The translations under genes were made by a program, and so were the position numbers. DNA of 27,368 bases from Priapulus caudatus (taxonomy: Eukaryota > Priapulida > Priapulimorpha > Priapulimorphida > Priapulidae): NCBI RefSeq assembly GCF_000485595.1, contig NW_014577307.1:251105-278472 (forward strand), in the 5' to 3' direction. The notes under the pieces are model-generated. The model ran no database searches, had not been told where the DNA came from, and worked only from the letters and a program-made list of their open reading frames with translations. This document shows positions 1,530 through 23,869 of the stretch, piece by piece. Each line of letters starts with the position of its first letter. The stretch's first letter is position 1.

Positions 1530-1966
1530 CCACTTAGATTGTAAGGTATTATGTATATTTACACTCATAATGAATTTTTAATAAAATTTGGTCCTATGTT
1601 ACAGAAAAATTCACCTAAAATGTTACGAATGTGACAAAACATCTGTACTTCTTCCTGCGTACAACCTTCGCCACAACTTTCTGCTCTCTGCGTGTGCTTC
1701 TGCCTTTACATTCTCACACGAGAAATCGATTGCGATCCATCCAGAAAATCGCCACACAACTCACGTCCGAAAATGTGTGCTGCAACATATATGACCAACC
1801 CGAAGATCAGCTCACCTTAAAAACAACCCCCACAAATCGTTCTTTCTCTATCTTCGCCGATACACCCCCCACACATTCACTCCACATGTCGTGCCGGTCT
1901 AGCCTCTAGGAGGACTTAATAGACTCTGTTGCATCATAGAAATGCCCTCCAAACATCAGGACTTAC

Positions 1967-2083
1967 CATGAATAGATGCTTGTCTTGCCCTCCTCTCCTG
2001 CAGACCAGGTCCGTCGACACCTTCGCACTTAGTGCCCGGCCCGTGCCATTCTGTTGACCACCAGGTTGGCGACAGCAGTGCCT
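1967..2083 (-). pseudogene. Broken duplicate of nexin-C exon 3
   Basis: It matches 12011-12111, but is 117 nt against 101 because of many small insertions. The NLVVNRMARAGH reading replaces NLVGQQNARQG through a frame shift. The GTAAGT donor is retained. Confidence 0.85.
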
Positions 2084-2377
2084 CTGCGCGAGAAAAACAG
2101 CTATTATGAAGCTCTAGCTTCCCCAAACTACATTCATCATGATTAAAATCCACGGGCTGACTAAATCTGTCATCGACGCCTGTAAAACGGGCAGTTCGCC
2201 GTCGGACTCTGCCTGTTTAACATGCGCAGTTGCCATCTCTTCTATTCGTAAACTAGAACTACTAAAAAGATATGTGCAATTGTGCCGAACTTACAATCAC
2301 ATTGCGACGACGAACGCGCATTTTGATGGACAAGATGGCGCCCTCCGCTTGACAGACGGCAGCATTGAAAGACTGAC

Positions 2378-2565
2378 CGGGTATGTTGCGTAACACTATT
2401 GCTCTTGGGCTAGTTGCCCTGGTGGTTAGCTTCTCCTCATCACTGGCGGCGCCGTCCACAATTCTGTAGCTTTCCACCAGGCCCATGGCGTCGCGGAACA
2501 GGTGGACTATACCAGATGAGCATAGATTCACTGAACAGCATACCAACAAGTATCGTGGATCTGCC
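2378..2565 (-). pseudogene. Broken duplicate of nexin-C exon 2
   Basis: It matches 12386-12567. Single-base differences give several frame changes: LFRDAM is readable and then runs into LVESYRIV where the intact copy has WPGGKL. Splice sites are retained. Confidence 0.85.
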
Positions 2566-2887
2566 CTGCAACGTTGGGAGCCGGGCAGATGCAGTGAAAA
2601 ATGAATTGAACGAATAATTTCTGCTACTACTGTACACGTAACTAATAATAATACATGATGATGATGCATAATAATAATAACATATCAAAACATTATAATA
2701 AATTAATATGAATAATATATTATGATTAATAATTAATTAAATAAACTATGCATAAAACACAAAACACAAGCAACGGAACAACAACAACAGACAACAATAA
2801 TAAGTAATAATAATAACAGTAAGTACTTCTAAAAAAAATCACAGAACGATCTGTCCAGCGGGACAGAGAGACGCAGAGACGGCTCAC

Positions 2888-3042
2888 TGTTGATGCTGCT
2901 GCGAACCGTGAGACCTGCCGAGACGATGAGAGGCGGCGCAGGAAGCTGAGACACGCGCTGAGCTCAAACACCTCCTGTGATGAGCGCTGTATCATCGGCC
3001 GCGTCCGATCGAATCTGGCGGCGTCTGGGTCTCGCGCGACCG
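2888..3042 (-). pseudogene. Broken duplicate of nexin-C exon 1
   Basis: It matches 12839-12985. EVFELS is readable, then the frame is lost. The acceptor region has no AG at the expected position (GTGCGGTCGC where unit 2 has GTGCAGTGGTC). Confidence 0.85.
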
Positions 3043-3381
3043 CACGCGACGCGAGCACGACACAAAACATATATACTAGAGACAGAGACAATTAATATTA
3101 TTATATTACTATTATCATTGTTAGGACACGAGTTAAGGACACATTGAGCAGCAGATTGTTCATCTTGCAGTTAAAAAAATGTAGCCTCAGCTCTCAAGGA
3201 AATGCAAATGAATCGTCAGTTTAGTGGAAACATGCCATAAAATGTGCGCACACAGCATATATGTCAGTGCTGCAGTATTTATTGCCGTCACCAGGTCCAT
3301 CAACACGGAGGTCCACCACGTTGCGCGAACCACTAAGGTCAAGGTGACGACAACCCGCCCAATGATTCAGACGCGGCTCAC

Positions 3382-3597
3382 CTCTCGTCGTCGAGGAACA
3401 GCTCAAGGTCAGCCATCAAGTCGTTGGGCAGCAACAGCAGATGAGCCGAGCGAAGAGTTTGCGAAAGCGGCAAGGACGAGCGCAGGCGGCTTCACAGAGC
3501 GGGCCTGCGCGGCCTGATGTTGCCTCCAGGCTCGGACTAAGGAAGTAGAGTAGAGCAATCTGCGCTGCACGCGACCACCTCGTTAAGAGAGACAGGT
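3382..3597 (-). pseudogene. Broken duplicate of PX exon 3
   Basis: It matches 13303-13505 but is 216 nt against 203, with about a dozen scattered extra bases. The acceptor CTTCAG and donor GTGAGC remain, but no single frame spans the exon. Confidence 0.85.
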
Positions 3598-4041
3598 CTG
3601 AAGCACATCAGTAATCACGCGTTCTAATGGTGACTATATACGTGCTGTGCTGGTATGTGGTGGACGGGTGGTATGGTGCTTGCTGCTAAATTCTATTTGC
3701 TACTACTGCTGCTGCTGTGCTACTATTACTTACTACTACTATCTCATCTATAAGTTGTTATTATATTTTATTGATATTAATTATCATATCGATTATATAA
3801 TATTATTCATCAAACTTTTATCTGTCATGATGATAACAGTTGAGAAAACGCAAGCTTATCACTTAGGGAAGAGATTAAACAGCTCTGTAGACAAGTAGTA
3901 GGATAGTAGAATACCACCTATACAATGTCCATAACATCATGGTCGCCCGGCCAGGTGTCGAAATATAATCTCATAGCCTTCTAAACTTTATGTGCACATG
4001 TACACCTGTACAGCCCAGGAGGCGTGTTGGTGAGCTTCAAC

Positions 4042-4156
4042 GTTTAGTACTGCTCCAGGATTGTCTTTGCTTCTGTCTAAAAACGCTCATCTCACGACCG
4101 GAAATGGAATGGTCGTTGGGGAAATGCAATGCATAGCTTGTCAACCAGGGAGCCAC
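4042..4156 (-). pseudogene. Broken duplicate of PX exon 2
   Basis: It starts like 14020 (VAPWLTSYAL readable), then shifts frame at about 4125 through insertions. The donor is destroyed (GTTGAAGC against GTAAGC in the intact copy). Confidence 0.85.
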
Positions 4157-4429
4157 CTGGGTCGCAGGAAAACACACACAAAATAGTAGTAATACTAGCT
4201 CGTTTAAGCAATGATAAGAAAGAATACGTGTCAACAAATGACACTGCCTTCGATTATCCTCTGAGTGACAAATTTATAAACAGGTTGACTACAGTAAGAA
4301 TACCAAAGGTGAAAGAATATATATGCATACCTACCGGACAAACATTTTCAAGTCTAATGCTAACCTGCCACACCCAAGATGCATAGTGGATGACTAGTAA
4401 GAATTGCAGGCCTTTAAAATACAACCCAT

Positions 4430-4575
4430 CACCACACACACACATCCACCACACACACACGCACGCAGCGAATGCACGCACGCATGCCAAGACGACGCAC
4501 GCGACGTACGTACACCCACAGCACACAACACACACGCATGCACCGACGACCACAAATGCACGCCGCATGCCGAAG
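4430..4575. repeat. CA/GCAC-rich simple repeat (unit 1)
   Basis: Cacaca and cgcacgcatg words lie in the intron upstream of the broken PX exon 2. The array is shorter than that in unit 2. Confidence 0.8.
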
Positions 4576-4599
4576 GGACGCGACGTTACGGGCCCACAA

Positions 4600-5450
4600 C
4601 ACGATGCGGTGGATATTTGAGCACGCTATCATCAAATCATTAATCATTCACATCTATACAAAGCCTGTCATGGGTGACACCTCTGCATAGTCGGAGCCGT
4701 TAGACGCAAGCTCTCAACTCCTACACCATACACTCCCGAGCGTTACTACATGGGCGCAACAGGGTCGTAAGACGTCCAATCGCATGCGCATGAGCACGCG
4801 AGCACTGCACAGCGAGGTCCATCGGACAGCCACGACAACGACAACGAGAGCTTTTGCGACGTCGCACGTTGCGTACATGTGGTCTCAATGCACGCATAAA
4901 GTACACTCATATAGGGCGCTTAGGTTTATACGGAGAAGGTGGTTAAACTTTTAAGTTCGCAGGGCACGAGGGTCTTGGCGAGGGGATGTGCTACTGCAAG
5001 TGACGGGCGTGTCTGCCGGCTGCTCATTGGCGTCACCGGCGGACTGATTTCCCGCGCTGGGAACGCAGAGAGTTAGTGGAGGGTCGCCGATGTACTTTCT
5101 TATGAGACTAAGCCAGCCGGGGCGCGCTTTAGAGAAATAATACCGCTGGTACTCTTGCCCATCTTGATGGCTGTCCGTCAGGAACTGAGCTATATGGGAC
5201 GCGTCACTCTATGGCTGACTCGTATTAGTCAACAAAGGCATTAAAAATTGTAAATCACACCAGATTGATAAAGGTCAGAACAACGTTTCCTCTCCACGCT
5301 CGCTTCCGTCAAAACGGTGCAAAGCTGAGGGCTGGAGCGCTAGTTCGCGCTTCGAAGTAATAGCCTTTACTGCACGGCGCACGTGCATAAATGATAACTT
5401 CAAACAGGTATACTCAGACCCATGAATTAAATATAAAATAATAATAGATG
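4600..5450. other. Unit 1-specific stretch replacing the first PX exon
   Basis: In unit 2 the corresponding interval (about 14560-14880) holds the first PX exon. Here I find neither that exon nor any other coding match. The sequence is GC-balanced, without obvious terminal repeats, poly-A tail or recognisable open frame. It may be an insertion with loss of the exon, a haplotype difference, or a badly called consensus. Similarity to unit 2 resumes at 5481 (cacattagaga). Confidence 0.5.
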
Positions 5451-6489
5451 CGGATAGAATTACACGCGGGGATCCACGCTCACATTAGAGAGTAGCTTGC
5501 TAAAGATTCTCATATCTCTAGATAGAGCCACCTCTTGCGCCTGCTTCAGCGCGCGACGGAAAAATAGTCATTGTGTCGAGAAATGAAAGTGTGGCACGCC
5601 TTATGGTGATACACACCTGCGTACAATGCGATCGACCGTACCCCATAACGAGAATCGCACGTTACGAGGTGAATAGATAGAATCCCTTGCAAGGAAAGTA
5701 TGGAGAGAAGAGTCTCAGTTATGAACTTTATTAATATCGTGACCAGTGACTTGAGGTCTTGAACTTTGTTAACATATTGTTATTTATAGAATACTCGAAC
5801 CGTGGCGCAGTTTGGAAGTATCGGCCAACTCTAGAACATATGTAACCTTAATAGCTGAAAATAATGATGACGAAAAATCATCAATTTTATGTAGTATGGT
5901 ATTCCGCTCAAGCACTCAAGGACGCCACACACATCACATAAACCCACGCCATTACACAACACACAACACACACAAATCAACCAAATAAGCATGTAGCCGA
6001 TTGGCGTTGAAATAAATAGGTCTATGCTGCGCATTCCGACATGTTTAGTAAATCTTTACTCTAATATAACGGTTTGATCGCAGGGTGGAGCAGAATACGA
6101 TTTTGCCATTACATAGCAATATTGGCAATGAAATCTTGTAAAACGAACCATGACGCATGTGTGCACCACTCAGGACTGTTTGCTGTTTATATATATATGC
6201 TTAATAATTGCCAACCCTCCCCTAATTTGCATAATTTTTTTTTTAATCATCAAAACCCCTAGCGCTTTATCATTCACATACCAAAAATGAGCAAATTCGC
6301 GTTGAACCTGAAAGCTGACTAATTGTCGCCTCCCCAAATTCCGATTTTTGCCAAAAATTGCCGTGGCATCGAAAGCTAGTCAACTGGCGTGCTTCAAAAT
6401 GAGGACGTTTAATATGGGAGCCAGCAGTAAAAACTATGACCCAAATTTCAAAACATTGTGGCCCAAACGGTTCCTTGAGTTTATCGTTG

Positions 6490-6630
6490 ACTGAAGCGAA
6501 AAAAATGTTGACGGACAACGGTACGTGACGACGGACGTACGCACCGGACGCGACTCCATGCAATAGCTCAAGCTTGACGATGTCAGGTGAGCTTAAAAAA
6601 TGAGGAAGAGGAGATGTCAAAGGTAACCTA
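6490..6630 (+). repeat. Dispersed repeat tail, GACGG-rich with TCAGGTGAGCT end (unit 1)
   Basis: A run of gacgg/cgtacg words is followed by caatagctcaagcttgacg, atgtcaggtgagcttaaaa and tgaggaagagg. The same architecture appears at 15700-15805 and, in a divergent form, at 21395-21550. It probably represents the end of a dispersed element whose body extends left to about 6285. Confidence 0.6.
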
Positions 6631-7183
6631 ACTTTTATTACACGAACATATGTATATATGCCTAACACAGAATATACAATATACAAAGAACAAATGGGTA
6701 AGACAGCAATGGGCGACTCAAGATTTATGCACAGAAAGCCACAAGAAACGATCGCACACATAAGTCGCACGAGATGCTTCATCAGAAATGGGGCATTTTG
6801 GACCAAAATCCATATAAGATTATATAGGATAATATATATAACTAGAGCACTCGGAGAGCACAGACCTCCGCCAAGACAGCTGAATTTTCTCAATGTAATT
6901 TTTTTTATTTAATTACATTAATTAATGAAGTGGAAAAATTAATTAGGATAATTTAATTAAATAATTAATTGGATCCGGATTATGGGCCGCAGCGTGGCAG
7001 TGGGGAAGGACTGTGTTACCCTTAGCCTGTGCGTGCATGCTTTGTACAGAGTACTAAAGCCAGCGCCACCTAGGCGGGAAGTGACTGAATACGTGCATGT
7101 TTAACAAACCACAACACACAAACCAACACGGCAAACACGCACGCGGTAAAAATAAACCCCCGCCAAGCCCTGGCAGGGTAATG

Positions 7184-8184
7184 CAGGAGTAGTAATGCGA
7201 GAGGAGTTTGACAGTATTATGGTACGATTTCGCTACATTTTAGTCGTACGAGTTCGACTCGTGAAAGAATAAAAATCTACAAATGTATAGCAAACAATGA
7301 GCTTCTTTTGTTCACGCGTCTTTATTCTATCTTTTCTACCGGGTAATATTACAAACGCGTAGCTTACTTCGTTTTGCTCAATGGCGTACTATTGCACGAA
7401 CATGGTTTTCACGTTAGTTACCGTGCTGTGGCGATGCAAAGCCCGAAATTCGCCACACCAGCTAAGTTGAAGGCAAGGCGCGCCAAAGCTTCTTTTCGGC
7501 CGTTATAGCCTAGTCGGAGTGCCAGAAAATTCGGCGCCTAGAAATTTAAGTTGACATTGGCAGACCAATGCCTGGTTTAAAAGATTAAAACTATTTTACA
7601 TTTAAACTATATTAGGAATGGCCGTGTTTTATATGTGTTGAAAAGTCCGGCGAGTTTTTTTTTGATAAACGCTGCCGTGGTAGAAATATGCTACTACTTC
7701 GACCCGCCGGAGGAATGATGTGTATGAATCGTTATGTGAGTAACTGACGCATCCAGCCGCATTCGTAGGCTTTCTCGCACACTGTGTTTTACATGTTAAT
7801 ATGGACGCAACCGTTAGGTGTAGTCGGGGGTTAGCCAAGCGGGGCTGTTGCACGGGGGGCGCGGCGCGTACAGTGCCGCTGGCGCTGCTTGAGGCGATCC
7901 CTGCGTGCCTCCTTCAGTAGGCTGTGGTCGCGAATTTCGGGCTTGCATCGCACACGACGGTAACTAACGTAAAAAACCATGTCGTGCAAAAGATACAATT
8001 ATGTCAAAACGAAGTAAGCCTACGCGGTTTGTAATACTACCGGAAGATAGAATAAGGACCAGTGAACAAAAGAAGCTCATGTTTGTATACATTTGTATTT
8101 TTATTCACATCTAACTCATACGACAAAATGTAGTGAAATCAGTACCAAATACGTGTCAAACTCCTTTGTCATTATTAGCTCCTG
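7184..8184. repeat. Fold-back element with ~320-base inverted arms (unit 1)
   Basis: The plus-strand sequence from about 7184 to 7500 (caggag, gagtttgacagtatt, cgctacattttagtcgta, gagcttcttttgttcac, ttacaaacgcgtagcttact, cacgttagttaccgt, gcccgaaattcg) recurs as reverse complement from 8184 back to about 7900 with small differences. The spacer of about 400 bases has no clear open frame. This looks like a non-autonomous long-inverted-repeat element. It lies in the intron between the second coiled-coil exon and the PX exons. Confidence 0.75.
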
Positions 8185-8252
8185 ATATAATATAATAATA
8201 ATAAAAATATATAATAGGAAAAAGAGCTTTAAATTTGTGACAGTGCCCCAAC

Positions 8253-8384
8253 CTGGTAGCCATCGATCTCCACGCGCCAGCAGCTGCAATTCTCGCTCCA
8301 CGTTTCCGTTCTGTCGATGTGAGACTGCAACTGTAGCTGCTCTTGTGTCATTTCCTGAACTGCCTGTTCTAGCTTGCCAATCGT
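8253..8384 (-). CDS. SNX25: SNX25 exon: coiled-coil to PX lead-in (intact copy)
   Basis: A 132 nt exon (44 codons, phase 0 to 0) with acceptor TATCGCAG and donor GTTGGG. It encodes a Gln-rich helix (IGKLEQAVQEMTQEQLQLQS) and then HIDRTETWSENCSCWRVEI. The H..RT..W.EN...W...I motif is the conserved approach to the PX domain in SNX25. Only ~70 bases downstream on the minus strand begins a large fold-back repeat. In unit 1 the intact series of exons stops here: the matching first PX exon is not found in unit 1. Confidence 0.9.
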
Positions 8385-8575
8385 CTGCGATAACGACAAC
8401 TCAATTTCAATTAAAAATATTTTTTAAGCATGTTAGGGTTTAGTTTAGGGTCTTGCAGTCATTTAAATGAGATTAAAAGTCAGTTAAACATCGCAGGGTT
8501 AAAGAGATACATCTGGCCCTCACAACAATCCAGCTGCGACTCTGTCCTGGAGGGTGTGAGAGAGAGTAAGGTCAC

Positions 8576-8715
8576 CTTTGGGTCAGGTCGGTGTGAGTTG
8601 CGCAGCGCCTGTAGCGCCCGAGACTTGTTGCGAAATCTCTCCTCCAGGGCTGTCAGCTTGCGCTGGGCGTAGACGCACTGCTGCCCGAGGCTAGGCCCCT
8701 CGCTCGCCTGCCGCT
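8576..8715 (-). CDS. SNX25: SNX25 exon: coiled-coil region, first part (intact copy)
   Basis: A 140 nt exon, acceptor TTTTTTCAG and donor GTGACC. It completes a Glu codon from the RGS exon and ends in phase 0. It encodes a polar lead and then YAQRKLTALEERFRNKSRAL followed by QALRNSHRPDPK. The pattern A..KL..LEE...NK..ALQALR..-.PDPK matches the helix between RGS and PX in SNX25 proteins, probably an extended or coiled-coil helix. The second copy at 17680-17823 is about 95% similar to the eye but out of frame. Confidence 0.92.
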
Positions 8716-9028
8716 CTGAAAAAACCAACGCGAGCCTTAGTGGAACAATTCTGAAAAGTGATCCTGCTTTCGAGTACGCATTGCGTGGAAGGAAGCAAGC
8801 TGGAATTATTGTGCGAATAATAAGCGGGTGAAACGGTTCGGTTATACTGCGAGTGGGTGAAATCGCAATTCAGTCAAGGCTGTATATAATGGCCACTGGA
8901 TTTAAACGGTGAGAGTGGCCTTCACGGACAGGTCGCCGTTCTATCGAGGTGGCCGCTAACACAAGTGTGATTGTACTCGGGTGCACCAATACGTATTAAC
9001 AGTGAACAGCGAACAGTGCAATTCTCAC

Positions 9029-9212
9029 CCAGTGTACTTCTCGCATTGCTCTCGTCAGCGGCGGCGTCGGGCGTCGCACGCGAGGCTCCGGCCGGATCGT
9101 ACATGTTGCCGACGTAGCTGTTGTAGACGTCGCTGACTAGGAAAGACGGGTAGAAGCGATCCTCGAGCGTGTCGAACAGCTCCTGCTGAGCCTCGTAGAA
9201 TCCCTCCGGTCC
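9029..9212 (-). CDS. SNX25: SNX25 exon: end of RGS domain (intact copy)
   Basis: A 184 nt exon with acceptor TACGCAG and donor GTGAGA, ending in phase 1. It encodes GPEGFYEAQQELFDTLEDRF and then YPSFLVSDVYNSYV. The AQ..LF.-LE.RFYPSFLVSD motif closes the RGS fold and is close to the vertebrate SNX25 sequence at this point. A low-complexity acidic and Ala-rich tail (SRATPDAAADESNARS) leads out of the domain. The splice phases agree with the exons on both sides. The duplicate at 18130-18316 has lost its acceptor AG and its frame. Confidence 0.93.
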
Positions 9213-9840
9213 CTGCGTATAACGGCGTAAATGTGAGAGTATTGCAACATGCGTTATAACGTGCCCAGTAGGTGGCGCTAACTACTTCACCGAAGCCAGT
9301 GATGAACACCAACGTCACAGCCTGGACTGGGGTGGAATAAATTCGATGTTCGTATCATATAGTAAACGTTGCTTCTTCAGTCTTTACTTTGGAAATACAA
9401 CAGTAAAGGAAGCAGGTGAGCAAACATGGCCGACGTAATGAGTCACCACATATGACAGAATCTAGTTCTGAATTGAGATATGGCACATGACCATTGCACA
9501 AATGTACACACGATCGAACCTGCGTATGACCCGTACTCAAGAACACACGAAAAGTGGTCTTTGTGAGTAGGATAAGTTGATGTCAGGTAACTTTGTGTCA
9601 ATGGCAAACAGCATAAAAACGTGTTTTCCCAGCCAAAATCTGATCGCCTTGGAAAGACACCCACGATACGAGGACGAGTGTCCTGGTGAAAAGGTCTATT
9701 GTATATTAAACTCTATAAGCCATCTCAAATAAATGTAATCTATGGATTGCATTAACTTTTCTATTCTTGTCCCAATGTTTCTAAAATCTCTAATTGACAA
9801 ATTAAATCCATATAGGTGTGACCTGCAACATTACAAATAC

Positions 9841-9963
9841 CTTGTCAGCAACAAGAAATGCTTCCATGTGCTTAACAATAGCACGATCTAACTTCACTGC
9901 ACTGCTGCTGCTGCTCAACAGATGGCGTTGGTAGAGCTCTGTGGCCACTCCATGCTGTTTGAC
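9841..9963 (-). CDS. SNX25: SNX25 exon: RGS domain, middle (intact copy)
   Basis: A 123 nt exon (41 codons, phase 0 to 0), acceptor ATTTCAG and donor GTATTT. It encodes VKQHGVATELYQRHLLSSSS, followed by VKLDRAIVKHMEAFLVADK. The A..LYQ.-L and following VxLDRxIxxxMEAxL helices correspond to the central part of an RGS fold. A run of serine codons (AGC x4 then AGT) comes from a CTG-type repeat on the plus strand at about 9902-9914 and could vary in length between individuals. The counterpart at 18945-19069 is frameshifted. Confidence 0.92.
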
Positions 9964-10154
9964 CTGAAATAGGGCTATCCATGCATCATTGTGACAACTT
10001 AATTTACTATGCCTAACCTACCCGTTATTGTAATTGACTACAAACTCTATCACAAAGAGTATCACAATTCTTTCACTTGAAATTAAACTCGTTTCTTAGA
10101 ATTTGGTGCATTTGTGTATATTAGAATAGAGAATCTTTCATATAATCATTACTA

Positions 10155-10664
10155 GTGCGTTCAATTTGCTTCCCCAGAGCCACCTGGGTTAATCTGGGTA
10201 CGAAATCGAACGCATCTGGGTTAGGGAAGATAAACGAACGGTTTTTGGGTTAACCCGGGTTAATTATCATAGATGCCGTTAACAAGAAAAAAAGAATAGC
10301 AATTGCAATCTTATTATTAATGAAATCTAAGAATGAGCGGCTCAAGGATAGAGAGCATGTCCAGTAAAAAACATCATCTTATCCAATCACCGTCCTTGAG
10401 CAAACACACGCAGTCATTCACACTGCTACATTCATGCAGCACTGATCCCGCACTGATATCGTCGCCATGCATGGTGTCGTTGCAATGGATTGTGGGATAC
10501 TTCCCCAAGCCCCCCCCCAAGTGAGCACCTCGGCGAGCCGCTCACTTCGTCCTCACCCGGGTTGACCCGGGTAATGCAAAAATACCACGTGACTGCCAAA
10601 TCGAACGTATTTGGGGCTGGCCCGAGTAGACCCAGGTTAACTTGGGGAAGCAAATCGAACGCAT
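10155..10664. mobile_element. Non-autonomous DNA element with terminal inverted repeats (unit 1)
   Basis: The left end reads tgcgttcaatttgcttcccc and the right end is its near-perfect reverse complement ggggaagcaaatcgaacgca, about 510 bases apart. Inside are repeated CCYGGGTTAA-like motifs, including the palindrome ttaacccgggttaa at 10250-10263. There is no transposase. The size, TIRs and lack of coding fit a MITE. The target-site duplication is unclear (TA or a short AT-rich word). It sits in an intron of the RGS domain. Confidence 0.75.
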
Positions 10665-10699
10665 TATACAAGATGCAGCGGACCCGAGCACCAACTCAC

Positions 10700-10831
10700 T
10701 TTTGGCGAGGATCTCAGTTTCTCGACACCTTCCCAGAATTCTAGCAATGACTCGAGGCCCGTTCTCTGTAAATACTCGAGGAATGCCTTTCTCCCCTCTA
10801 CTGTCTCCATGATGGCAGTGAAGGATAGTGC
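10700..10831 (-). CDS. SNX25: SNX25 exon: RGS domain, first part (intact copy)
   Basis: A 132 nt exon (44 codons, phase 0 to 0) with acceptor CGTCACAG and donor GTGAGT. It encodes ALSFTAIMETVEGRKAFLEY and then LESLLEFWEGVEKLR. This is the opening of an RGS fold: a helix ending in a fixed aromatic, the R..F..Y/F motif, then L.FW..VE.L. RGS domains bind G-alpha subunits. Those of SNX13/14/25 are divergent, and GAP activity is not certain, so none is claimed here. The same exon occurs at 19877-20014 with indels. The downstream intron holds a terminal-inverted-repeat element that ends only ~36 bases from this exon. Confidence 0.93.
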
Positions 10832-12010
10832 CTGTGACGAGAATGCATCCAAGCAAATCATACATCACATCAAAAGTAGATGAGGGAAGAATTTCGTTTC
10901 TTATCTATTTTTAACACATCTAAATTATATATTGATATATTATATATCTAATACATATTTGTGGAAGTTTCTCTGTTCGTCTGTTCTCGATTCAAATCAA
11001 TATCGGCCACTCTATATATGTCCAAGGATGGCCATTACATGCAACTTTGGATACATTGGAACATGGGCGCATTGGATTTGACCTCCGAGGTCATCTGACA
11101 TTGCAAAACAAAACAAGTGCCGAGGAGCGACAGCGCTCATCTAGCATCTACTGCGGTGACTCTGTGGTGGAGTGGTGGGATTCTAGTAAACCCTGCTAGT
11201 CCCAAATGTGTTCACATACGCGCCAAAACAGTGGAAGGCACAGGGATGGTATCAGGAACCTTCTCAAAGAAATGTTCGTTGGAATCTTTATGAAAGTTGC
11301 CACGAGATGGCACGTACGTTTAAGTGTCTTTAGATTAAAGATGGAAGCTCCCATCGTACGTAGTAGCAACAACTATTTGCAAGACAGAATAGGTAAGCAC
11401 TCATCCATTTACCTACGCAAGCCTACAGGTTGAAATAGAGAGCTACCACCTGTAACTAATTAACACAGGCAAAAGCTACACAGTACTATTGCCACTACAT
11501 GCACTGGCAGTGGCATAAGTTACATGTAACACACTGACAGTACAGAATGCCATAGAAATTATACGATTTAAGGAGCATAAACCTTCTTCAACTCCACTTA
11601 GATTGTAAGGTATTATGTATATTTACACTCATATGAATTTAATAAAAGTTGGTCCTATGTTACAGAAAATCACCTAATGTTACAAATTGACAAAAATTGT
11701 ACTTCTTCCTGCGTACAACCTTCTGCACAACTTCTGCCTCTCTGCGTGTGCTTCTGCCTTTACATTCTCACACGAAAAATCGATTGCGATCCATCCAGAA
11801 AATGCACACAACTCACGTCCGAAAATGTGTGTAACATATATGACCACCCGAAATCAGCATCACCTAAAACACCCCCACAAATCGTTCTTTCTCTATCTTC
11901 GCCGAGTACACCACCCACACATCTCACTCCACATGTGTGCCGTTCTAGCCTCTAGGAGATTAACTAGACTCTTGCATCTATAAAGATGCCCTCCAAACAT
12001 CAGGACTTAC

Positions 12011-12111
12011 CATGAATAGATGCTTGTTTGCCCTCCTCTCCTGCAGAGCTTCGAACACCTTGATAGTGCCCTGCCGTGCATTCTGTTGACCCACCAGGTT
12101 GGACAGTGCCT
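12011..12111 (-). CDS. SNX25: SNX25 exon: nexin-C domain, last exon found (intact copy)
   Basis: A 101 nt exon with acceptor CCCGCAG and donor GTAAGT. It completes a Glu codon and encodes ALSNLVGQQNARQGTIKVFE followed by ALQERRANKHLFM. The L..LVGQQNAR.G..K.F.ALQE.-ANKHL motif is close to the end of vertebrate SNX25, where about 25 residues remain. The donor shows that one more coding exon should follow. I did not find it in 11594-12010 or in 1-1529, so it is probably beyond the left edge of this window. Confidence 0.93.
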
Positions 12112-12385
12112 CTGCGGGAGAAAACAGCTATATGAAGCTCTAGTTCCCCAAACTACATTCAATCAGATTAAAATCACGGTGCGACTAAATCTGTCATCGA
12201 CGCGGTAAAATCGGGCAGTGCGTCCGACTCTGGTTTAACATGGCATATGCCATCTCTCTATTCGTAAAACTAGAACTACTAAAAAGATATGTCAATTTCC
12301 GAATTCCAATCACACTGCGACGACGACGCGCATTTGATGACAAGTGGCGCCCTCGCTTGACAGACGGCAGCATTGAAAGACTGAC

Positions 12386-12567
12386 CGGGTATGTTGCGTA
12401 ACACTATGGCCTTGGCTAGTGCCCTGGTGGTTAGCTTCTCCTCATCACTGCGTGCCGGTCCACATTCTGCTAGCTTTCCACCAGGCCACATGGCGTCGCG
12501 GAACAGGTGGATATACCAGATGAGCATAGATTCACTGAACAGCCAACCAACAGTATCGTGGATCTGC
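12386..12567 (-). CDS. SNX25: SNX25 exon: nexin-C domain, middle (intact copy)
   Basis: A 182 nt exon, acceptor GTTGCAG and donor GTCAGT (a slightly weak site), ending in phase 1. It completes a Lys codon and then encodes QIHDTVGWLFSESMLIWYIH and LFRDAMWPGGKLAECG. These are followed by a basic and acidic helix ending in VLRNIP. The QI.DTV.W.FSE.ML..YI..FRDA.WP.GKLA signature is diagnostic for SNX25-type nexin-C domains. The unit 1 version (2378-2565) carries several indels. Confidence 0.94.
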
Positions 12568-12639
12568 CTGCAACGTGGGAGCCGGCAAGATGCATGAAAA
12601 ATGAATTGAACGAATAATTTCTGCTACTACTGTACTACT

Positions 12640-12717
12640 ACTAATAATAATAATGATGATGATGATAATAATAATAACAATATCAATAAAAACATTAATA
12701 ATAATAATAATGATAAT

Positions 12718-12759
<42 letters not shown>

Positions 12760-12782
12760 AATAATAATAATAATAACAGTAA
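12640..12782. repeat. Trinucleotide repeat tract (AAT/AAC)n
   Basis: Runs of ataataata and aacaacaac lie in the intron between nexin-C exons 1 and 2. The matching interval in unit 1 (about 2640-2822) is shorter in pure repeat and much interrupted. Translations of poly-Leu or poly-Ile/Thr across it are artefacts. Confidence 0.9.
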
Positions 12783-12838
12783 GTATTCTAGAAAAAAATC
12801 ACAGAGATCTGTCCAGCGAGAGACGCAGAGACGCTCAC

Positions 12839-12985
12839 TTGTTGATGCTGCTGCCGAACGTGACCTGCACGAAGACGATGAGAGTGCGGCGCAGGAAGCT
12901 GAACACGCCGCTGAGCTCAAACACCTCGCTGATGAGCGCGTACATCGGCCGCGCGATCGAATCTCGCTCCTGGTCCTCCCGACCA
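12839..12985 (-). CDS. SNX25: SNX25 exon: start of nexin-C domain (intact copy)
   Basis: A 147 nt exon with acceptor GCGTGCAG and donor GTGAGC. It encodes a charged lead (GREDQERDSIARP), then YALISEVFELSGVFSFLRRT and LIVFVQVTFGSSINK. The S/GE.FEL.G.F...RRTLI..VQVTFG..INK pattern is nearly the vertebrate SNX25 motif at the start of the C-terminal nexin domain. In unit 1 (2888-3042) the same exon is frameshifted and its acceptor AG is lost. Confidence 0.94.
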
Positions 12986-13302
12986 CTGCACGCACGCAGC
13001 ACACACAAACATATATTACTAGAGACAGAGACAATTAATATTATTATTATTACTATTATCATTGTTAGACACGATAAGGACACATTAGATCAGAGGTTCA
13101 TCTTGCAGTTCAATGTAGCTCAGCTCTCAAGAAATGCAATGAATGTCCAGTTTAGTGGAAACATGCATAAAATGTGGCACACACATATATGTCAGTGCTG
13201 CATATTTTCTGGGTCACCAAGGTCATCAACACGGAGGTCACCACGTTGCGCGACCACTAAGGTCAGGTGACCGACAACCCGCCCAATGATCACGCGGCTC
13301 AC

Positions 13303-13505
13303 CTCTCGTCGTCGAGGAACAGCTCAAGGTCAGCATCCAAGTCGTTGGCAGCAACAGCAGATGACCGAGCGAAGAGGTTTGCGAAGCGGAAGGACGAGGA
13401 GGCGGGCTTCAGAGCGGGCTGCGGCGGCCTGATGTGCTCCAGGCTCGGACTAAGGAAGTAGTAGAGCATCTCGCTGCACGCGACCACCTCGTTAGAGAGA
13501 CAGGT
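13303..13505 (-). CDS. SNX25: SNX25 exon: end of PX domain and linker (intact copy)
   Basis: A 203 nt exon, acceptor TGCTTCAG and donor GTGAGC, ending in phase 2. It encodes TCLSNEVVACSEMLYYFLSP and SLEHIRPPQPALKPASSSF, then an acidic stretch with DLDADLELFLDDE. The first part matches the last PX helices (C.SE.LY.FLSPS.E.). The rest is the usual flexible acidic linker to nexin-C. The next exon supplies the third base of a Ser codon, so the phase fits. The unit 1 counterpart is 3382-3597 and is broken. Confidence 0.92.
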
Positions 13506-13519
13506 CTGAAGCACACAGT

Positions 13520-13705
13520 AATCACGTTCTTAATTACTACTACTACTGCTGGTGCTGGTTGTGGTGGACGTGGTGGTATGGTGCTGCTGCTAATTCTATT
13601 GCTACTACTGCTGCTGCTGCTGCTACTATTACTACTACTACTATTATTATAATTGTTATTATTATTATTGATATTATTATCATTATCATTAATAATATTA
13701 TTCAT
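13520..13705. repeat. Trinucleotide repeat tract (CTA/CTG/TTA)n
   Basis: Tactactac, ctgctgctg and ttattatta words lie in the intron between PX exons 2 and 3. The unit 1 counterpart is at about 3640-3800 with more interruptions. Confidence 0.85.
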
Positions 13706-13909
13706 CAAACTATTTATTTCATGATGATACATTGAGAAAACGAAGCTATCACTAGGGAAGAGATTAAAACAGCTTGTAACAAGTATAGGATAGTAGGAAT
13801 ACCACATTAAATCCATAACATCATGTGGCAGTGTCGAAATATAACTCATAGCCTTCTAAACTTATGTGCACATGTACACTGTACAGCAGGAGGCTGTTGG
13901 TGAGCTTAC

Positions 13910-14020
13910 GTTTAGATACTGCTCCAGGATTGTCTTTGCTCTGTCTAAAAACCGCTCATCTACCGACCGGAAGGAGGTCTTGGAAATTGGCAATGCATAG
14001 CTTGTCAACCAGGGAGCCAC
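13910..14020 (-). CDS. SNX25: SNX25 exon: PX domain, middle (intact copy)
   Basis: A 111 nt exon (37 codons, phase 0 to 0), acceptor GCGACCAG and donor GTAAGC. It encodes VAPWLTSYALPISKTSFRSV followed by DERFLDRAKTILEQYLN. This aligns with the PX segment that in vertebrate SNX25 runs from the VP/VA..L motif through the Pro-rich turn to F+S+D..F...+. It contains the membrane-facing loop and the long helix of the fold. The matching exon in unit 1 (4042-4156) is frameshifted and has lost its donor. Confidence 0.92.
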
Positions 14021-14274
14021 CTGGTCGCAAAAACACACACAAAATAGTAGGAATACTAGCTCGTTTAACAATGATAAGAAAGAATACGTGTCAACAAATG
14101 ACACTGCTTCGATTTATCCTGAGTGACAATTATAAACAGGTTGACTACATAAGAATACCAAAGTGAAAGAATATATATGATACCCACCGGACAACATTTT
14201 CAGTCTAATGTAACATGCCACACCCAAATGCATGTGCATACTAGGTAAGAATTGCGGCTTTAAAATACAACCCA

Positions 14275-14550
14275 CCAACGCACGCACGCACGTAAACGCA
14301 CGCACGCATGCAAGAACGCACGCACGTACGTACACACACCCACACACACACACACGCATGCACGCACGCAGCCAAAATGCACGCACGCGATCGCAAGACT
14401 CACGGACGCGCACACCACACGGATGCACGCACAGCAACACACACGCGCATGCTCTACGCACGGCACACACAGCACACAACAAACACACACACACAACACA
14501 CCACACACAGCAACACACAGCACACGCGCGTGCGAGTGCATGCACGCACT
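14275..14550. repeat. ACGC/CACA-rich simple repeat (unit 2)
   Basis: About 275 bases of cacacaca, gcacgcacgcatgc and related alternating purine-pyrimidine words, which are prone to Z-DNA and to slippage. It lies between PX exons 1 and 2, ending ~60 bases before the first PX exon. It is about twice as long as its counterpart at 4430-4575. Confidence 0.85.
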
Positions 14551-14612
14551 AGCCACAGGCTAGGCTTACCGCACACCGACTTGCCTAACGCAGAGCGGCG
14601 CTGCGGACTCAC

Positions 14613-14761
14613 GCGACTCGATGCTGTGGAGGGTTTTGAGGTCGCCGAGATTGTCGCGAGACGACCCAGCCGGCGTCTGGTTGTGCCGTTCGCCGTTGTC
14701 CGTCGTCGATTCGACGGCTTGCCCGGACAAGAACACCATATGGTAACAGTAAGGAACACTC
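14613..14761 (-). CDS. SNX25: SNX25 exon: start of PX domain (only copy; one frame break)
   Basis: The acceptor GGGCAG precedes a phase 0 start that reads ECSLLLPYGVLVRASRRIDD and on to GWVVSRQ. It resembles the first beta strands of a PX domain followed by the W-x-V-x-R element. After that the PX-like reading LGDLKTLHSIES is in another frame, so at least one indel lies near 14650-14670. A GTGAGT donor at 14612-14607 closes the exon; its 149 nt length is one short of in-phase, consistent with sequencing error. A longer form ending at 14570 (donor GTAAGC) is possible but adds residues not expected in PX. No equivalent is visible in unit 1. A canonical PX Arg-Tyr pair is not present; Leu replaces Tyr, as in vertebrate SNX25. 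Confidence 0.65.
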
Positions 14762-15699
14762 CTGCCCTCTCGTCCTGAACGACGTAGATGCGCGAGAAAC
14801 CGCGCAAAGAAATAAAATCAAATATATAATAATAAAGAAAGGTAAATAAAACATAACAAATAGATGGATACATAATACCACGGCGGATATCAACGCTCAC
14901 ATTAGAGAGTACTTGTAAGCACTCTCATATCTTAGATAGAGCACCAGCTCTGCGCTTTCAGCGGCGCGGACAAAAAATAGCATTGTCACGAAATAAAAGG
15001 TGTCATATGACACTGTAGCTCGCCACAAAAATAGGACACACAAATATAAGTGAGTAAGAAGAAGCTCAGTTTAATTGAGCACCATGTCAGACGTACATAT
15101 AGAAACGTATCTGCCATGCTGTTATATCGCAATAATAATTTATAGAAACCAAATGAATCACATTGTGACCCGTGAGATGGCCTTACGCTATCCCGCTTTG
15201 TGCGTATGGCGTTTGAAATAAATACGGTTTATGCTGCATTCACCGACATTTTTTGTAAATCTTGTTACCTGATAGACGTTTTATCGCCAGGTGGAGAGGG
15301 AATAGACCATTTGCATTAAAGCATATGTCAATGAAATCTTGTAAAACGAACCAGTTGAGTGGTCTGACACCACAGACTGTTTGTGTTTATATAATATGCT
15401 ATAATTAATTGCCAAACCCCCTATTGCATTTAATTTTTTTTTTAAGATATCAAAACCCCTAGCGTCTGATTCCATTCACATACCAAAAATGAGCAAATCC
15501 GTTTGAAAGCTGACTACTAAGGGCAATTCCCATTTTGCCAAAAAATTTGCGGTGGATCGAAAGTACGTTCAACTGGCCGTGGCTTCGAAAATAGGAACGT
15601 TTTAATATGGGAGGCGGATAGCAGGTAATCAAACTATAACACCAATTTCAAAATGTTGCGCCAAACGTTGTCCTGAGTCGTACGTTTGATCCTGAAAGC

Positions 15700-15805
15700 G
15701 AAATGTTGACCGGACGGACGGACGGCCGTACGTACGAGGGCGACGACCCAGTGCAATAGCGCTCAGCTTGACGATGTCAAGGTAGGCTAAAAATGAGGAA
15801 GAGGA
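15700..15805 (+). repeat. Dispersed repeat tail, GACGG-rich (unit 2 copy)
   Basis: The words cggacggacggacgg, cgtacgtacg, caatagcgctcagcttgacg and atgtcaaggtaggctaaaaa make this the duplicate of 6490-6630. Confidence 0.6.
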
Positions 15806-16351
15806 GATGTCAAAGGTACCTACTTTTATTACCACGACATATGTAATATATGGTTAACACAGAATATACAATATATCAAAGAAGCAAATGGTTAAGACAG
15901 CAAGCGGCGACGTCAAGATTTAAGGCACAGAAAGCCACAAAAACAGATCGCACACATAAGTCGCACGAGTTGCTTCATCAGAAATGGGCCATTTTGGACA
16001 AAATCCATAAAAATATATATATAACTAGAGAGCACAGACCCTCCGCCAAGACAGCTGAATTTTCTCAATGTAGAATTTTTTACTTAATATATTAAATTAA
16101 GTAAGTGAAAAATTAATTAATTAATTAATTAATTAAATAATTAATTTGATCCGGATTAGTGCGAGCGTGGGGCAGGTGGGGAAGGACTGTGGTTACCCTT
16201 AGCCTGTGTTTCATGTTGTAAGTCTACAGCCAGCGCAGCCGCTAGCGGAAGTGAACGAAACGTGCATGTTACACAACGCACAAACACACAAACAACACTC
16301 AAACACACGCCGGTGAAAACATAACCCCCGCAAGAGCCCTGGCAGAGGTAA

Positions 16352-17284
16352 TCAGGAGCTAGTAATGACAAAGAGTTTGACACGTATTTGGTACTGATTT
16401 CGCTACATTTTGTCGTACGAGTTCGATGTGAATATAAAAATACAAATTGTAACCAAACATGAGGCTTCTTTGTTCACTGGCTTTATCTATCTTCGCGGTA
16501 GTATTACAAACCGCGTAGCTTACTTCGTTTTGACATAATTCGTAGCTTTGCGCACGACATGCGTTTTCACGTTAGTTACCGTCGTGTGGCGATCGCAAAG
16601 CCCGAAATTCGCACAACACAGCTGGCTAATTGAAGGACGCGCGCCAGGGCTTTTCGGCGGCCGTAGCCTAGTCGAGTGCAGAAAATTCGCCTAGAAATTA
16701 AGTTACATTGCACCAATGCTGGGTTTAAAAATTAAAACCATTTAACATTTAAACTATAGTTAGAATGGCCTTGTTTTATGGTTGAGTCCCGCATTTTTTT
16801 TTAATAACGCTGCGCTGGTAAAATATCTGAACTACTCACCCGCGGAGGAATGAAGTGTATGAATGCGTGTATGAGTAAACTGACGCTCCGCCGATGTAGC
16901 TTTCGCACATGCGTTTACCATTAATTGCATAGCAACGCGTTTAGTCTCTAGCCCGCGTACAGTTGCCGCTGGCCTGGCCTGAGGCGATCCTTGCCGTGCC
17001 TCCTTCAAGTAGCTGTGTGTGCGAATTTCGGCTTTGCCATCGCCACACATCGACGGTAAACTAACGTAAAAACCATGTCGTGCAAAAAGTACAAATTATG
17101 TCAAAACAAAGTAAGCTACGCGGTTGTAATACTACCGGAAGATGAAAAGGACCAGTGAACAAAAGACAGCTCATGTTGTTATAGCATTTGTATTTATTAC
17201 ACATCTAACTCATACGACAAAATGTAGTGAAATCAGTACCAAATACGTGTCAAAGCTCGCTTTGTCATTATTAGTCTCTGATAT
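16352..17284. repeat. Fold-back element with long inverted arms (unit 2 copy)
   Basis: This is the same element as at 7184-8184, carried along by the duplication. The left arm (aatcaggagctagtaatgac, tttgacacgtatttggtac, tacattttgtcgtacgag) and the reverse complement of the right arm agree closely, which confirms that the inverted structure is not confined to one copy. Confidence 0.75.
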
Positions 17285-17348
17285 AATATAATAATAATAA
17301 AAATATATAATAGGAAAAAGAGCTTTAAATTGTGACAGTTGTCCCAAC

Positions 17349-17486
17349 CATCCGGTAGCCATCGATCTCCACGCGCCAGCAGCTGCAATTCTACGCTCCA
17401 CGTTTCCGTTCTGTCGATGTGAGACTGGCAACTTAGCTGTGCTCTTGTGTCATTCTCTGAACTGCTGTTCTAGCTTGCCAAATCGT
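17349..17486 (-). pseudogene. Broken duplicate of coiled-coil exon 2
   Basis: It corresponds to 8253-8384. It is 138 nt instead of 132 and has an extra T next to the acceptor, further indels at 17430-17470, and an insertion just before the donor. Confidence 0.8.
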
Positions 17487-17679
17487 CTGCGATAACGACA
17501 ACTCAATTCAATTTAAAATATCTTTTAGAGCATGTTAGGTGTTTAGTTATGGGTCTGCAGTCATTTAAATGAGATTAAAAGTCAGTTAAACATTCGGCAG
17601 GTGTAGAAGATACATCTGGCCCTCACAACAATTCAGCTGCGACTCTGTACCTGGAGGGTGTGAGAGAGAGTAAGGTCAC

Positions 17680-17823
17680 CTTTGGGTCAGGGCTCGTGTG
17701 AGTTGGCGCAGCGCCTGTAGCGCCCGAGACTTGTTGCGAAGTCTCTCCTCCAGGGCTGTCAGCTTGTCGCTGGGCATAGACGCACTGCTGCCGAGGCTAG
17801 GCCCCTCGCCGCTGGCTGCCGCT
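17680..17823 (-). pseudogene. Broken duplicate of coiled-coil exon 1
   Basis: It matches 8576-8715 with both splice sites kept. Insertions near 17810 and 17700 put the start and end of the exon in different frames, with a readable central block (KLTALEERLRNKSRALQALR). Confidence 0.85.
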
Positions 17824-18129
17824 CTGAAAAACCCAACGCGAGCCTTAGTGGAACAATTCTGAAAAGTGATCCTGCTCTCGAGTACCATTGCGTGGAAGGA
17901 AGCAAGCTGGAATTATTGTGGCGAATAATAAGCGGGTGAAACGGTTCGGTTATACTGCGAGTGGGTGAATCGCAATTCAGTCAAGGCTGTATATAATGGC
18001 CACTGGATTTAAACGGTGAGAGTGGCCTCACAGACAGGTCGCCGTCTATCGACGTGGCCGCTAACACAAGTGTGATTGTACTCGGTGCACCAATACGTAT
18101 TAACAGTGAACGGCTAGTGCAATTCTCAC

Positions 18130-18316
18130 CCAGGTTGAAGTTCTAGCATTGCTCTCGTCAGCGGCGGCGTCGGCGTTGCACGCGGAGCTCCGGCGATCGT
18201 ACAGTGTTGCGGACGTAGCTGTTGTAGACGTGCGACGATAGGAAAGACGGGTAGAAGCGATCCTCGAGCATGTTCGAACAGCTCCTGCTGAGCCTCGTAG
18301 AATGCCCTCCGGTCCG
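18130..18316 (-). pseudogene. Broken duplicate of RGS exon 3
   Basis: It is a near copy of 9029-9212. The splice acceptor is altered (GCAACGG where the intact copy has GCAGGG), and indels at about 18140-18280 disrupt the frame, although YPSFL-type coding can still be read in pieces. Confidence 0.85.
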
Positions 18317-18944
18317 TTGCGTATAACGGCGTAAATGTGAAGTATTGCAACATGCGTTAAACGTCCCAGTAGGTGGCGCTAACTACTTCACCGAAGCCAG
18401 TGATGAACACCCAACGTCACAGCCTGGACTGGGGTGGAATAAATTCGATGTTCATATCATATAAGTAAACGTTGCTTCTTCAGTCTTACTTGTTGAAAAC
18501 AACAGTAAAGGAAGCAGTGAGGGCAAACATCGGCCGACGTAATGAGTCACCACATATGACAGAATCTAGTTCTGAATGAGATATGGCACATGAACCATTG
18601 CAACAGAATGTACACACGATGCGAACCTGCGTATGACCCGTACTGCAAGGACACACGAAAAGTGTCTTTGTGATAGGATAAGTTGATGTCAGGTAACTTT
18701 GTGTCAATGCAAACAGCATAAAAAGTGTTTTCCCAGCCAAAATCTGATCGCCTTGGAAAGACACCCACGATACGAGGACGAGGGTGTCCTGTGAAAAGGT
18801 CTATTGTATATTAACTCTATAAGCCATCTCAAATAAATGTAATCTATGGATTGCATTAACTTTTCATTCTTGTCCCAATGTTTCTAAAATAATTAATAGC
18901 AATTAAGATCCATATAGGGTGTGACCTGCTAACATTTCAAATAC

Positions 18945-19069
18945 CTTGTCAGCAACAAGAAATGCTTCACTGTGCTTAACAATAGCACGATCTAACTTCA
19001 CTGCACTGCTGCTGCTGCTCAACAGATGGCGTTGTAAGAGCTCTGTGGCTCACTCCATGCTGTTGCACG
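18945..19069 (-). pseudogene. Broken duplicate of RGS exon 2
   Basis: It matches 9841-9963, including the CTG-type serine repeat, but small insertions and losses near 19030-19069 shift the frame. The acceptor context reads TTTCAGCG rather than TTTCAGGT. Confidence 0.85.
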
Positions 19070-19264
19070 CTGAAATAGGGCTATCCATGCATCATTGTGA
19101 CAACTTAATTTACTATGCCTAACCTACCATTATTGTAATGACTACAAACTCTTATCACAAAGAGTATCACAATTCTTTCATCTGTGAAATTAAACTCGTT
19201 TCTTAGAATTTGGTGCATTTGTGTATATTAGAATAGAGAATCTTTCAATATAATGCATTACTAG

Positions 19265-19838
19265 TGCGTTCGATTTGCTTCCCCAGAGCCACTGGGTTAA
19301 CCTGGTACGAAAATCGTAACACGCATCTGGTTAAGGGAAGAGTAAACGAATCGGTTTTTGGGTTAACACCCGGGTTAATTATCAAATAAGATTCCCGGTA
19401 AACAAGAAAAAAAGAATAGCAAATGCAATGCTTAGTTATTAATGAAAATCTAAGAGATGAGCGGCCAGATAAAGAGGCAATGTTCCAGTAAAAAACATAC
19501 ATCTATAATCACAATGCACCGTCCCTTGAGCAACACACACGCCTGAAGATCCACGTCGTCAGCTGAACTCGCGATTATTCACCTGCTCATCATGCAGGCA
19601 CTTGATCCGCACGTGATACGTCGCATGCATGGTGTCGTTGGCAATGGATGTGGGATACATCTCCCAAGCCACCCCCCCCCCAAGTGATACGGCCCAGCGA
19701 GCCGGTTACTTCGCTCGACCCGGGTTGAACGCCGTGGTAATGGCAAAAATACCAGACGTACTGCCAAATCGACCACTGTATTTGGGGCTGGCCCGAGTAG
19801 ACCCAGGTTAACTTTGGGAGAAGCAAAATCGAACGGCA
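19265..19838. mobile_element. Non-autonomous DNA element with terminal inverted repeats (unit 2 copy)
   Basis: This is the copy of the 10155-10664 element within unit 2. Ends tgcgttcgatttgcttcccc and gggagaagcaaaatcgaacg are recognisable, and the interior has many small insertions, making it ~60 bases longer. Confidence 0.7.
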
Positions 19839-19876
19839 TATACAAGATGCAGCGGACCCGAGGCACACGAAATCAC

Positions 19877-20014
19877 TTTGGGCGAGGATCTCAGTTTTCT
19901 CGACACCTTCCGAGAATTCTAGCCAATGACTCGAGCCGCGTTCTCTGTCATAATACTGCGAGAAGTGCCTTTCTCCCCTCTACTGTCTCCATGATGGGCA
20001 GTGAAGGATAGTGC
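19877..20014 (-). pseudogene. Broken duplicate of RGS exon 1
   Basis: It matches 10700-10831 along its length but carries several one-base insertions (138 against 132 nt). The reading frame is lost soon after the start, and the donor reads GTGATT in place of GTGAGT. All differences seen are small indels or single changes rather than codon-level substitutions, which points to sequence error more than to pseudogene decay. Confidence 0.85.
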
Positions 20015-20789
20015 CTGTGACGAGAATGCATCCAAGCACATCATACATCACATCAAAAGTAGATGAGGGAAGAATTCGTTTCTTATCTATTTTTAACACA
20101 TCTAAATTATATATTGATATATTATATATCTAATACATTATTTGTGGAACGTTTCTCGTTCGTCTGTTCTCAGATCAAATCAATATCGGCCACTCTATAT
20201 ATGTCCAAGGATGGCCATTACATGCAACTTTGGATACATTGGAACATGGGCGCATTGGATTTGACCTCCGAGGTCATCTGACATTGCAAAACAAAACAAG
20301 CCGAGGAGCGACAGCGCTCATCTAGCATCTACTGCGGTGACTCTGTGGTGGAGTGTGTGGGATTCTAGTAAACCCTGTTAGTCCGCAAAATTGTGTTCAC
20401 ATACCGCGGCCAAAAACAGTGGATGGCACAGGGATGGTAATCAGGAACCTCCAAAGGAATGTTCGTTGGGATCTTTATGAAAGTGTCCACGCCAGATGGC
20501 ACGTACGTTAAGTGTCTTCAGATATAAAGATGGAAGCTCCCATCGTACGTAGTAGGCAACAACTATTTGCAAGACAGAATAGGTAAGCACTCATGCCATT
20601 TACCGTACGCAAGCCTACAGGTCTAAATAGAGAGCTACCACCTGTAACTAATTAACACAGGCAAAAGCTACACAGTACTATTGGCCACTACATGCACTGG
20701 CAATGGCATAAGTTACATGTAACACACTGACAGTACAGAATTGCCATAGAAAATATACGATTTAAGGAGCATAAACCTTCTTCAACCAA

Positions 20790-22083: not shown

Positions 22084-22274
22084 CTTTTTTCCAGGCACGT
22101 GCACCCCAGCCTGCCTCTCTCGGCTTCTGTACGACAGATACTCAGCGCCACCTAGCATGCGAATTCGGTACTCGCATTGCGCCTTTGCGTAGCGACACTG
22201 CTTGATGTAGCGATGCAGATTACGTGCCTTTAGTAACGCCCCCTTGGCACTGCTCGTAGGCTGTGCATCTCTGT
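22084..22274 (-). CDS. SNX25: SNX25 exon: PXA-RGS linker helices
   Basis: A 191 nt exon with acceptor ATCACAG and donor GTGGGC, ending in phase 0. It encodes a Ser/Ala-rich lead, then LLKARNLHRYIKQ and YAKAQCEYRIRMLGGAEYLS. The K-A-R-N-x-x-RYI...AK.QCE.RIR.LGG pattern is specific to SNX25 and close relatives and lies between PXA and RGS. It closes with basic residues ending in PGKK. The next coding exon in transcript order is the first RGS exon, which begins in phase 0 as required, about 2.1 kb away in unit 2 (broken there) or about 11.3 kb away in unit 1 (intact there). Confidence 0.93.
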
Positions 22275-22488
22275 CTGTGATAGGATAAAGGTACATTGTA
22301 AGGATAAGTGTACATGAGAAACTCCCAGAGAAAAGATATTCTACAGCAACAAGGCAAAGCAGAGCATTCGAATTATCCTTCTTTTCGTGATGATTGTTAT
22401 CGATGCATGAGCGGGAATAATTTATCAGCCATTGCACAGTGATGTGTGACAATTTTTATGCGGAATCATCACACAAGATGCTTGTTAC

Positions 22489-22562
22489 CTGTTTCTATTC
22501 CCTGTGCTTTTTTCCAGTTGTTGATCACGGTTGCCTGCATAATCTCAGTGATAATATGATAC
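22489..22562 (-). CDS. SNX25: SNX25 small exon: linker after PXA
   Basis: This 74 nt exon encodes YHIITEIMQATVINNWKKAQ followed by GIET. It joins LKQIR from the upstream exon through an Arg codon split two plus one. The pattern RYxIxxEIxQAT is conserved in SNX25 and related sorting nexins just after PXA. Splice signals are CTCTTAG and GTAACA. The exon ends in phase 1 and the next exon begins with the two bases that complete an Asp codon. It is too short to be noticed as an open frame on its own and is supported by homology and phase. Confidence 0.9.
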
Positions 22563-23796: not shown

Positions 23797-23869
23797 TAGT
23801 TTCTAAAACTATACTTTTTTAGAAACTCGAGATTTCAATCAAATTTGAGTTTTTTCAAAATCTCGAGTA
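23797..23869. other. Nested hairpins in a PXA intron
   Basis: agtttctaaaa (about 23800) pairs with ttttagaaact (about 23817-23827). Overlapping the second arm, actcgagattt (23825-23835) can instead pair with aaatctcgagt (23858-23868). The two stems compete for the same middle segment. This may be a small element remnant. Confidence 0.6.

Follow-up and report, generated by a model that had tools for sequence, protein, structure and literature searches.

Mirror-image exon damage in an SNX25-like gene of Priapulus caudatus is technical noise, and its tandem arrangement is probably a product of the assembly

Among the described systems, overfilling by the gap filler PBJelly comes closest to the locus presented here. 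According to the part of PMC9635638 that was available, filling with PBJelly leaves misjoined scaffolds with spurious sequence and duplicated genes, and the accessible sections of PMC8848313 put the identity of PBJelly fills, in simulated data, at 88.6-95.2% on average. The error profile of PacBio RS reads is stated in an excerpt of PMC3504050 as 2% mismatch, 4% deletion and 9% insertion. The priapulid Priapulus caudatus serves comparative work on moulting animals, for instance in PMC6170570, the available text of which names the assembly as Priapulus caudatus 5.0 (accession AXZU00000000.2, McDonnell Genome Institute). The assembly procedure was not found in print: the accessible parts of the literature gave only name, maker and accession, and likewise for a newer assembly. 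The window analyzed in this study, i.e. the whole stretch of 27,368 nucleotides, corresponds to positions 251105-278472 of scaffold C247 (365,796 bases). It is bordered by N on both sides, 6,944 bases before and 7,084 bases after, which do not necessarily represent assembly gaps. Next to these N runs of about 7 kb, a GA-rich tract is located at the start of the window (1-311) and a CT-rich tract near its end (26915-27244).

The joined exons of the window found their best protein match in P0001, 'sorting nexin-25-like isoform X2 [Priapulus caudatus]' (619 aa; 94% identity, 71% of the query). The gene lies on the minus strand, where single-copy exons for a membrane segment and the PXA domain (25200-22084) are followed by a first copied unit (unit 2) and then by a second one (unit 1). 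Residues 23-375 of P0001 align at exons E1 to E7 in seven pieces, six of them with 96-100% identity and the first with 74%, where the alignment overruns the exon. For exons E8 to E12 of unit 1, identities of 98-100% were obtained in four exons and of 85% in E10, again with an alignment running beyond the exon. A domain scan detected PXA (E 8.8e-25) and RGS (E 1.5e-19) in P0001 and Nexin_C (E 2.5e-28) in the protein assembled from the unit 2 exons. For PX, no Pfam match was obtained in the scanned protein, from which the damaged first PX exon was omitted; the late PX exon aligns to SNX25 relatives. Like SNX25, the window gene possesses PXA, RGS and nexin-C domains, and its nearest mollusc, hemichordate and nemertean SNX25 matches (P0002-P0006) are 38-41% identical to it. 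What separates it from SNX25 is the damage to its first PX exon in this assembly and a terminal exon that was not found in the window. Translated searches of the window and of about 10.6 kb of non-N sequence to its left (C247:211105-251104) gave no convincing match to the terminal exon among the matches listed. The window gene is one SNX25-like gene, part of which is tandemly copied in the assembly.

The copied part consists of two direct tandem units, unit 1 (1530-11592) and unit 2 (11594-20786), which were paired by blastn as 1530-4563 with 11594-14384 and 6002-11608 with 15207-20802 (Table 1). Exons E8 to E12 (RGS and coiled-coil; 8250-10831, minus strand) are open in unit 1 only, their unit 2 counterparts carrying 8 to 15 inserted or deleted bases per exon. 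Exons E14 to E18 (late PX, linker and nexin-C; 12008-14021) are open in unit 2 only, with 14 to 28 inserted or deleted bases in each of the unit 1 counterparts. The original prediction, made from the sequence alone, of tandem units with mirror-image exon integrity was confirmed by the blastn pairs and by five exons open in unit 1 only and five in unit 2 only. Inserted and deleted bases add up to a net multiple of three in four of the ten broken exons (E8, E10, E12, E16), whose reading frame is nevertheless disrupted internally. Unit 2 E9, though broken, retains an open stretch of 35 residues. Splice phases, read by eye, agree at all nine junctions checked (E7/E8 to E11/E12 and E14/E15 to E17/E18), as had been claimed. 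By contrast, the claim of a single indel in the first PX exon (E13, about 14.59-14.79 kb) turned out to be too low, since at least two frame changes occur in unit 2, where PX-like motifs are spread over three frames. In unit 1 this exon was not recognised; 4900-5399 was considered as a match to the unit 2 exon and rejected, its score lying below the best of 100 shuffles.

The two units had been described as holding the same exons. They are indeed direct copies but not collinear throughout, since no similarity was detectable between 4560-5381 and 14540-14800 or between 5597-6001 and 15006-15206 (z 0.1 to 1.8; 200 shuffles, three scoring schemes), while two positive controls reached z values of 16 to 92. 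For 4560-5400, no other match was found in the searched genome. The stretches 4560-5381 and 5597-6001 of unit 1, which are without a unit 2 counterpart, may reflect a haplotype difference, a real second copy or a chimaeric fill. A probe from the right part of the units detected only two matching places in its own genome, both inside the window, a result in favour of one gene drawn twice. The middle of each unit also harbors an inverted repeat (7184-8186; 16351-17282) with arms of about 280-300 bases, whose similarity of 77-87% in blastn is partly affected by noise.

Table 1. Features of the SNX25-like locus, with positions given for the window
Feature	Position	Strand	Remarks
Unit 1 left part, noisy copy of E14-E18	1530..4420	-	10.3 indel openings and 0.9 substitutions per 100 vs 11594-14263; indels in 5/5 exons
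Unit 1 middle, noisy	4421..8129	-	includes 4560-5381 and 5597-6001, without unit 2 counterpart
Unit 1 right part, accurate copy of E8-E12	8130..11592	-	five open exons
Seam, unit 1 end / unit 2 start	11592..11594	.	sequence
Unit 2 left part, accurate copy of E14-E18	11594..14263	-	five open exons matching SNX25 relatives
Unit 2 middle, noisy; damaged first PX exon (~14.59-14.79 kb) and repeat element (~15.05-15.87 kb)	14540..17223	-	14.9 indel openings per 100 vs unit 1 middle
Unit 2 right part, noisy copy of E8-E12 (RGS, coiled-coil)	17224..20786	-	6.0 indel openings and 1.4 substitutions per 100 vs 8130-11592; indels in 5/5 exons
E1-E7, upstream single-copy exons of the SNX25-like gene	22084..25200	-	membrane segment, PXA domain

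To describe the difference between the copies, affine alignments controlled by simulation were used. The left parts of the units (L) revealed 24 substitutions and 268 indel openings over 2,604 aligned bases (0.9%; 10.3 per 100), the right parts (R) 47 substitutions and 203 indel openings over 3,380 aligned bases (1.4%; 6.0 per 100), which amounts to about 4 to 11 indel openings per substitution. With the same aligner, natural divergence simulated at three levels was dominated by substitutions, while simulated indel noise reproduced the observed pattern. A first MAFFT alignment (1.6 to 54% mismatches per bin, few indels) was replaced, its gap costs being ill-suited to these sequences. Since gap openings also exceeded mismatches in plain blastn (208 versus 120 in L, 317 versus 305 in R with the middle), the sign of the indel excess is independent of the scoring, its size is not. 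Indel rates in exons and non-exons were 10.5 versus 10.1 in L and 6.6 versus 5.9 in R, i.e. the error is blind to coding status. On both sides, the copy with the broken exons is the longer one, with 287 versus 66 extra bases in L and 183 versus 83 in R; within the inner R part (8130-10200) this excess is small (69 versus 52 extra bases), a point against the account of misordered contigs and long-read fills given below. In L, substitutions and the extra bases of the open and of the broken copy correspond to 0.9, 2.5 and 11.0 per 100 aligned bases, respectively. That the noisy copies are longer is in keeping with the PacBio RS profile, as far as it is given in the available part of PMC3504050. 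The breakage of the copies is technical noise and not biology.

An outside standard for this noise is an interspersed repeat element, which is present in the window at about 5992-6658 and 15046-15875 and also at two other places (L023 and L007; scaffold C20 and elsewhere on C247). A comparison of the latter two copies yielded 3.9% substitutions and 2.9 indels per 100, i.e. natural divergence between repeat copies of this genome comprises more substitutions than indels. The window copies differ from them by 4.2-5.1% substitutions and 11.7-13.8 indels per 100 (11.7-13.2 for the unit 2 copy), which demonstrates noise beyond the natural divergence of the same genome. The element differs between unit 1 and unit 2 by 4.1% substitutions, a value as high as that between copies from separate loci, and the unit 1 copy is devoid of its first 115-139 bases or so, which unit 2 shares with L023. 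In the alignable middle (6002-7830 versus 15207-16946), 3.0% substitutions and 14.9 indel openings per 100 were determined. As these rates are close to the sum of those in L and R (2.3 and 16.3, respectively), both middles appear to be noisy, independently of each other. The suspected assembly artefact has to be divided into two parts. Indel dominance, equal rates in exons and non-exons and the repeat control provide good support for the mirror-image decay as an assembly product, whereas a false tandem arrangement is the favoured reading.

In the window, a single accurate block, at about 8.0-14.3 kb, is flanked by two stretches whose noise is independent. Its start, at about 7.9-8.1 kb, falls within an inverted-repeat arm and its end, somewhere from 14.0 to 14.6 kb, at a CA-rich array; short-read contigs would be expected to stop at such places. 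With a probability of roughly 65%, we assume that one SNX25-like gene was drawn twice by a hybrid assembly and that the false tandem originated from misordered contigs, PacBio-type reads and a PBJelly-type gap filler presumably having been used. The accurate contigs R (E8-E12) and L (E14-E18) would have been scaffolded in the order opposite to that in the genome, and the gaps on either side closed with poorly corrected long reads, each in the true order. The left fill would then read flank-L-middle-R and the right fill L-middle-R-flank. Because both fills would follow the true order, each of the exons E8-E12 and E14-E18 would occur once in an accurate and once in a noisy form, and the middle twice in a noisy form. 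It is the contig order and not the genome that we favour as the maker of the tandem.

Some observations stand against misordered contigs. The seam at 11593, where one or two bases match neither side, is free of N and connects accurate sequence with accurate sequence; a misordered join alone does not explain this. Identical runs of 39 and 33 bases exist at the unit ends, the first being the fifth of 298 runs in L and the second unremarkable in R; they allow, weakly, for accurate flanks that end at the unit ends, as a collapsed real duplication predicts. Moreover, the middles are partly unlike and the substitutions in the repeat element go beyond noise alone, so that the fills may derive from separate haplotypes, from two real copies or from a chimaeric read. 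Seam, identical runs and differing middles would all agree with a real tandem duplication of E8-E18 in at least one haplotype of the sequenced animal, the near-identical copies of which were collapsed by the short-read assembly. Accurate R and L would each have been placed once round a real junction, the missing copies would be noisy long-read fill and the decay would be unreal. The E18 donor and the E8 acceptor are, in addition, both phase 0, hence a real duplicate would keep the frame. On the other hand, noise could account for all substitutions in L and R, so that the copies show no sign of independent divergence. The occurrence of a noisy tandem pair on another scaffold points to a systematic cause, though this pair may be real too. 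It was the only additional multi-kilobase pair of this kind detected in 27 stretches of five scaffolds including C247 (270,000 bases, 163,484 of them not N), which were scanned with length cut-offs of 300, 250 and 200 bases; the count excludes satellite-like arrays near C247:309.7 kb and C50:75.4 kb. The pair, about 7 kb in length (C100:141464-148490 versus 148781-155565; L015, L016), is likewise indel-dominated, with 126 substitutions and 718 indel openings over 6,458 aligned bases. Its first copy stops right at a gap of 10 N. Since the 280 bases preceding the second copy are unlike those preceding the first one, it is not a plain overlap. On balance, a collapsed duplication is rather unlikely, albeit a serious competitor. 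A real and recent duplication of SNX25 E8-E18 in the sequenced Priapulus, in tandem and in frame, is slightly more doubtful still; it could encode a sorting nexin with doubled RGS, PX and nexin-C regions, and only the sequence decay would be technical.

The original prediction had envisaged another course, in which two noisy copies of one locus were joined and then polished, the reads being drawn to one copy at each place. The available part of PMC8081667 describes false duplicates that attract mapped reads while part of the sequence stays unpolished, and the complementary exon integrity agrees with such a process, which was therefore kept as a rival. It fits less well, however, and we regard it as highly improbable. 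Both copies of the alignable middle are noisy, at a rate close to that of the two sides added together, so neither of them was corrected, though 4560-5400 lacks a second match in the genome, and integrity switches once per unit instead of forming a patchwork. One accurate block between two noisy fills explains the doubly noisy middle directly. Whether contigs were misordered, a real duplication collapsed or polishing was uneven, the decay is technical in all three cases. Biological decay of a real duplicate, the copies of which lost different exons and were perhaps rescued by unusual splicing, matches the mirror-image pattern of open and broken exons only and is practically ruled out by the indel profile and the exon-blind rates, along with the insertion bias and the natural predominance of substitutions in repeat copies of this genome.

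The gene model P0001 has to be treated with caution. It leads from the single PXA exons to the unit 1 RGS exons (22084-25200 and 8232-10834) and ends in the intron after E12. In the protein, PXA and RGS were detected, whereas neither PX nor nexin-C gave a match, despite the open nexin-C exons in unit 2. A P. caudatus protein containing the late exons of unit 2 was not encountered among 442 candidates, five of which matched, none named P. caudatus and none with more than 60% identity. Because P0001 runs into an intron and is devoid of PX and nexin-C, it would be unsafe to read domain loss or exon duplication from this assembly. A gene with complementary damage in its two halves and far more indels than substitutions provides a rapid indication of fill from poorly corrected long reads.

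What the window has in common with PBJelly overfilling, as described in the accessible parts of PMC3504050 and PMC9635638, is the noise profile, the position of accurate beside noisy stretches and the duplicated gene parts; small N gaps (10 and 25 N) are also found elsewhere in the Priapulus assembly. By contrast, in typical overfilling noisy extensions face each other across a gap, whereas in the window the noise lies outside and the accurate block with its N-free seam inside.
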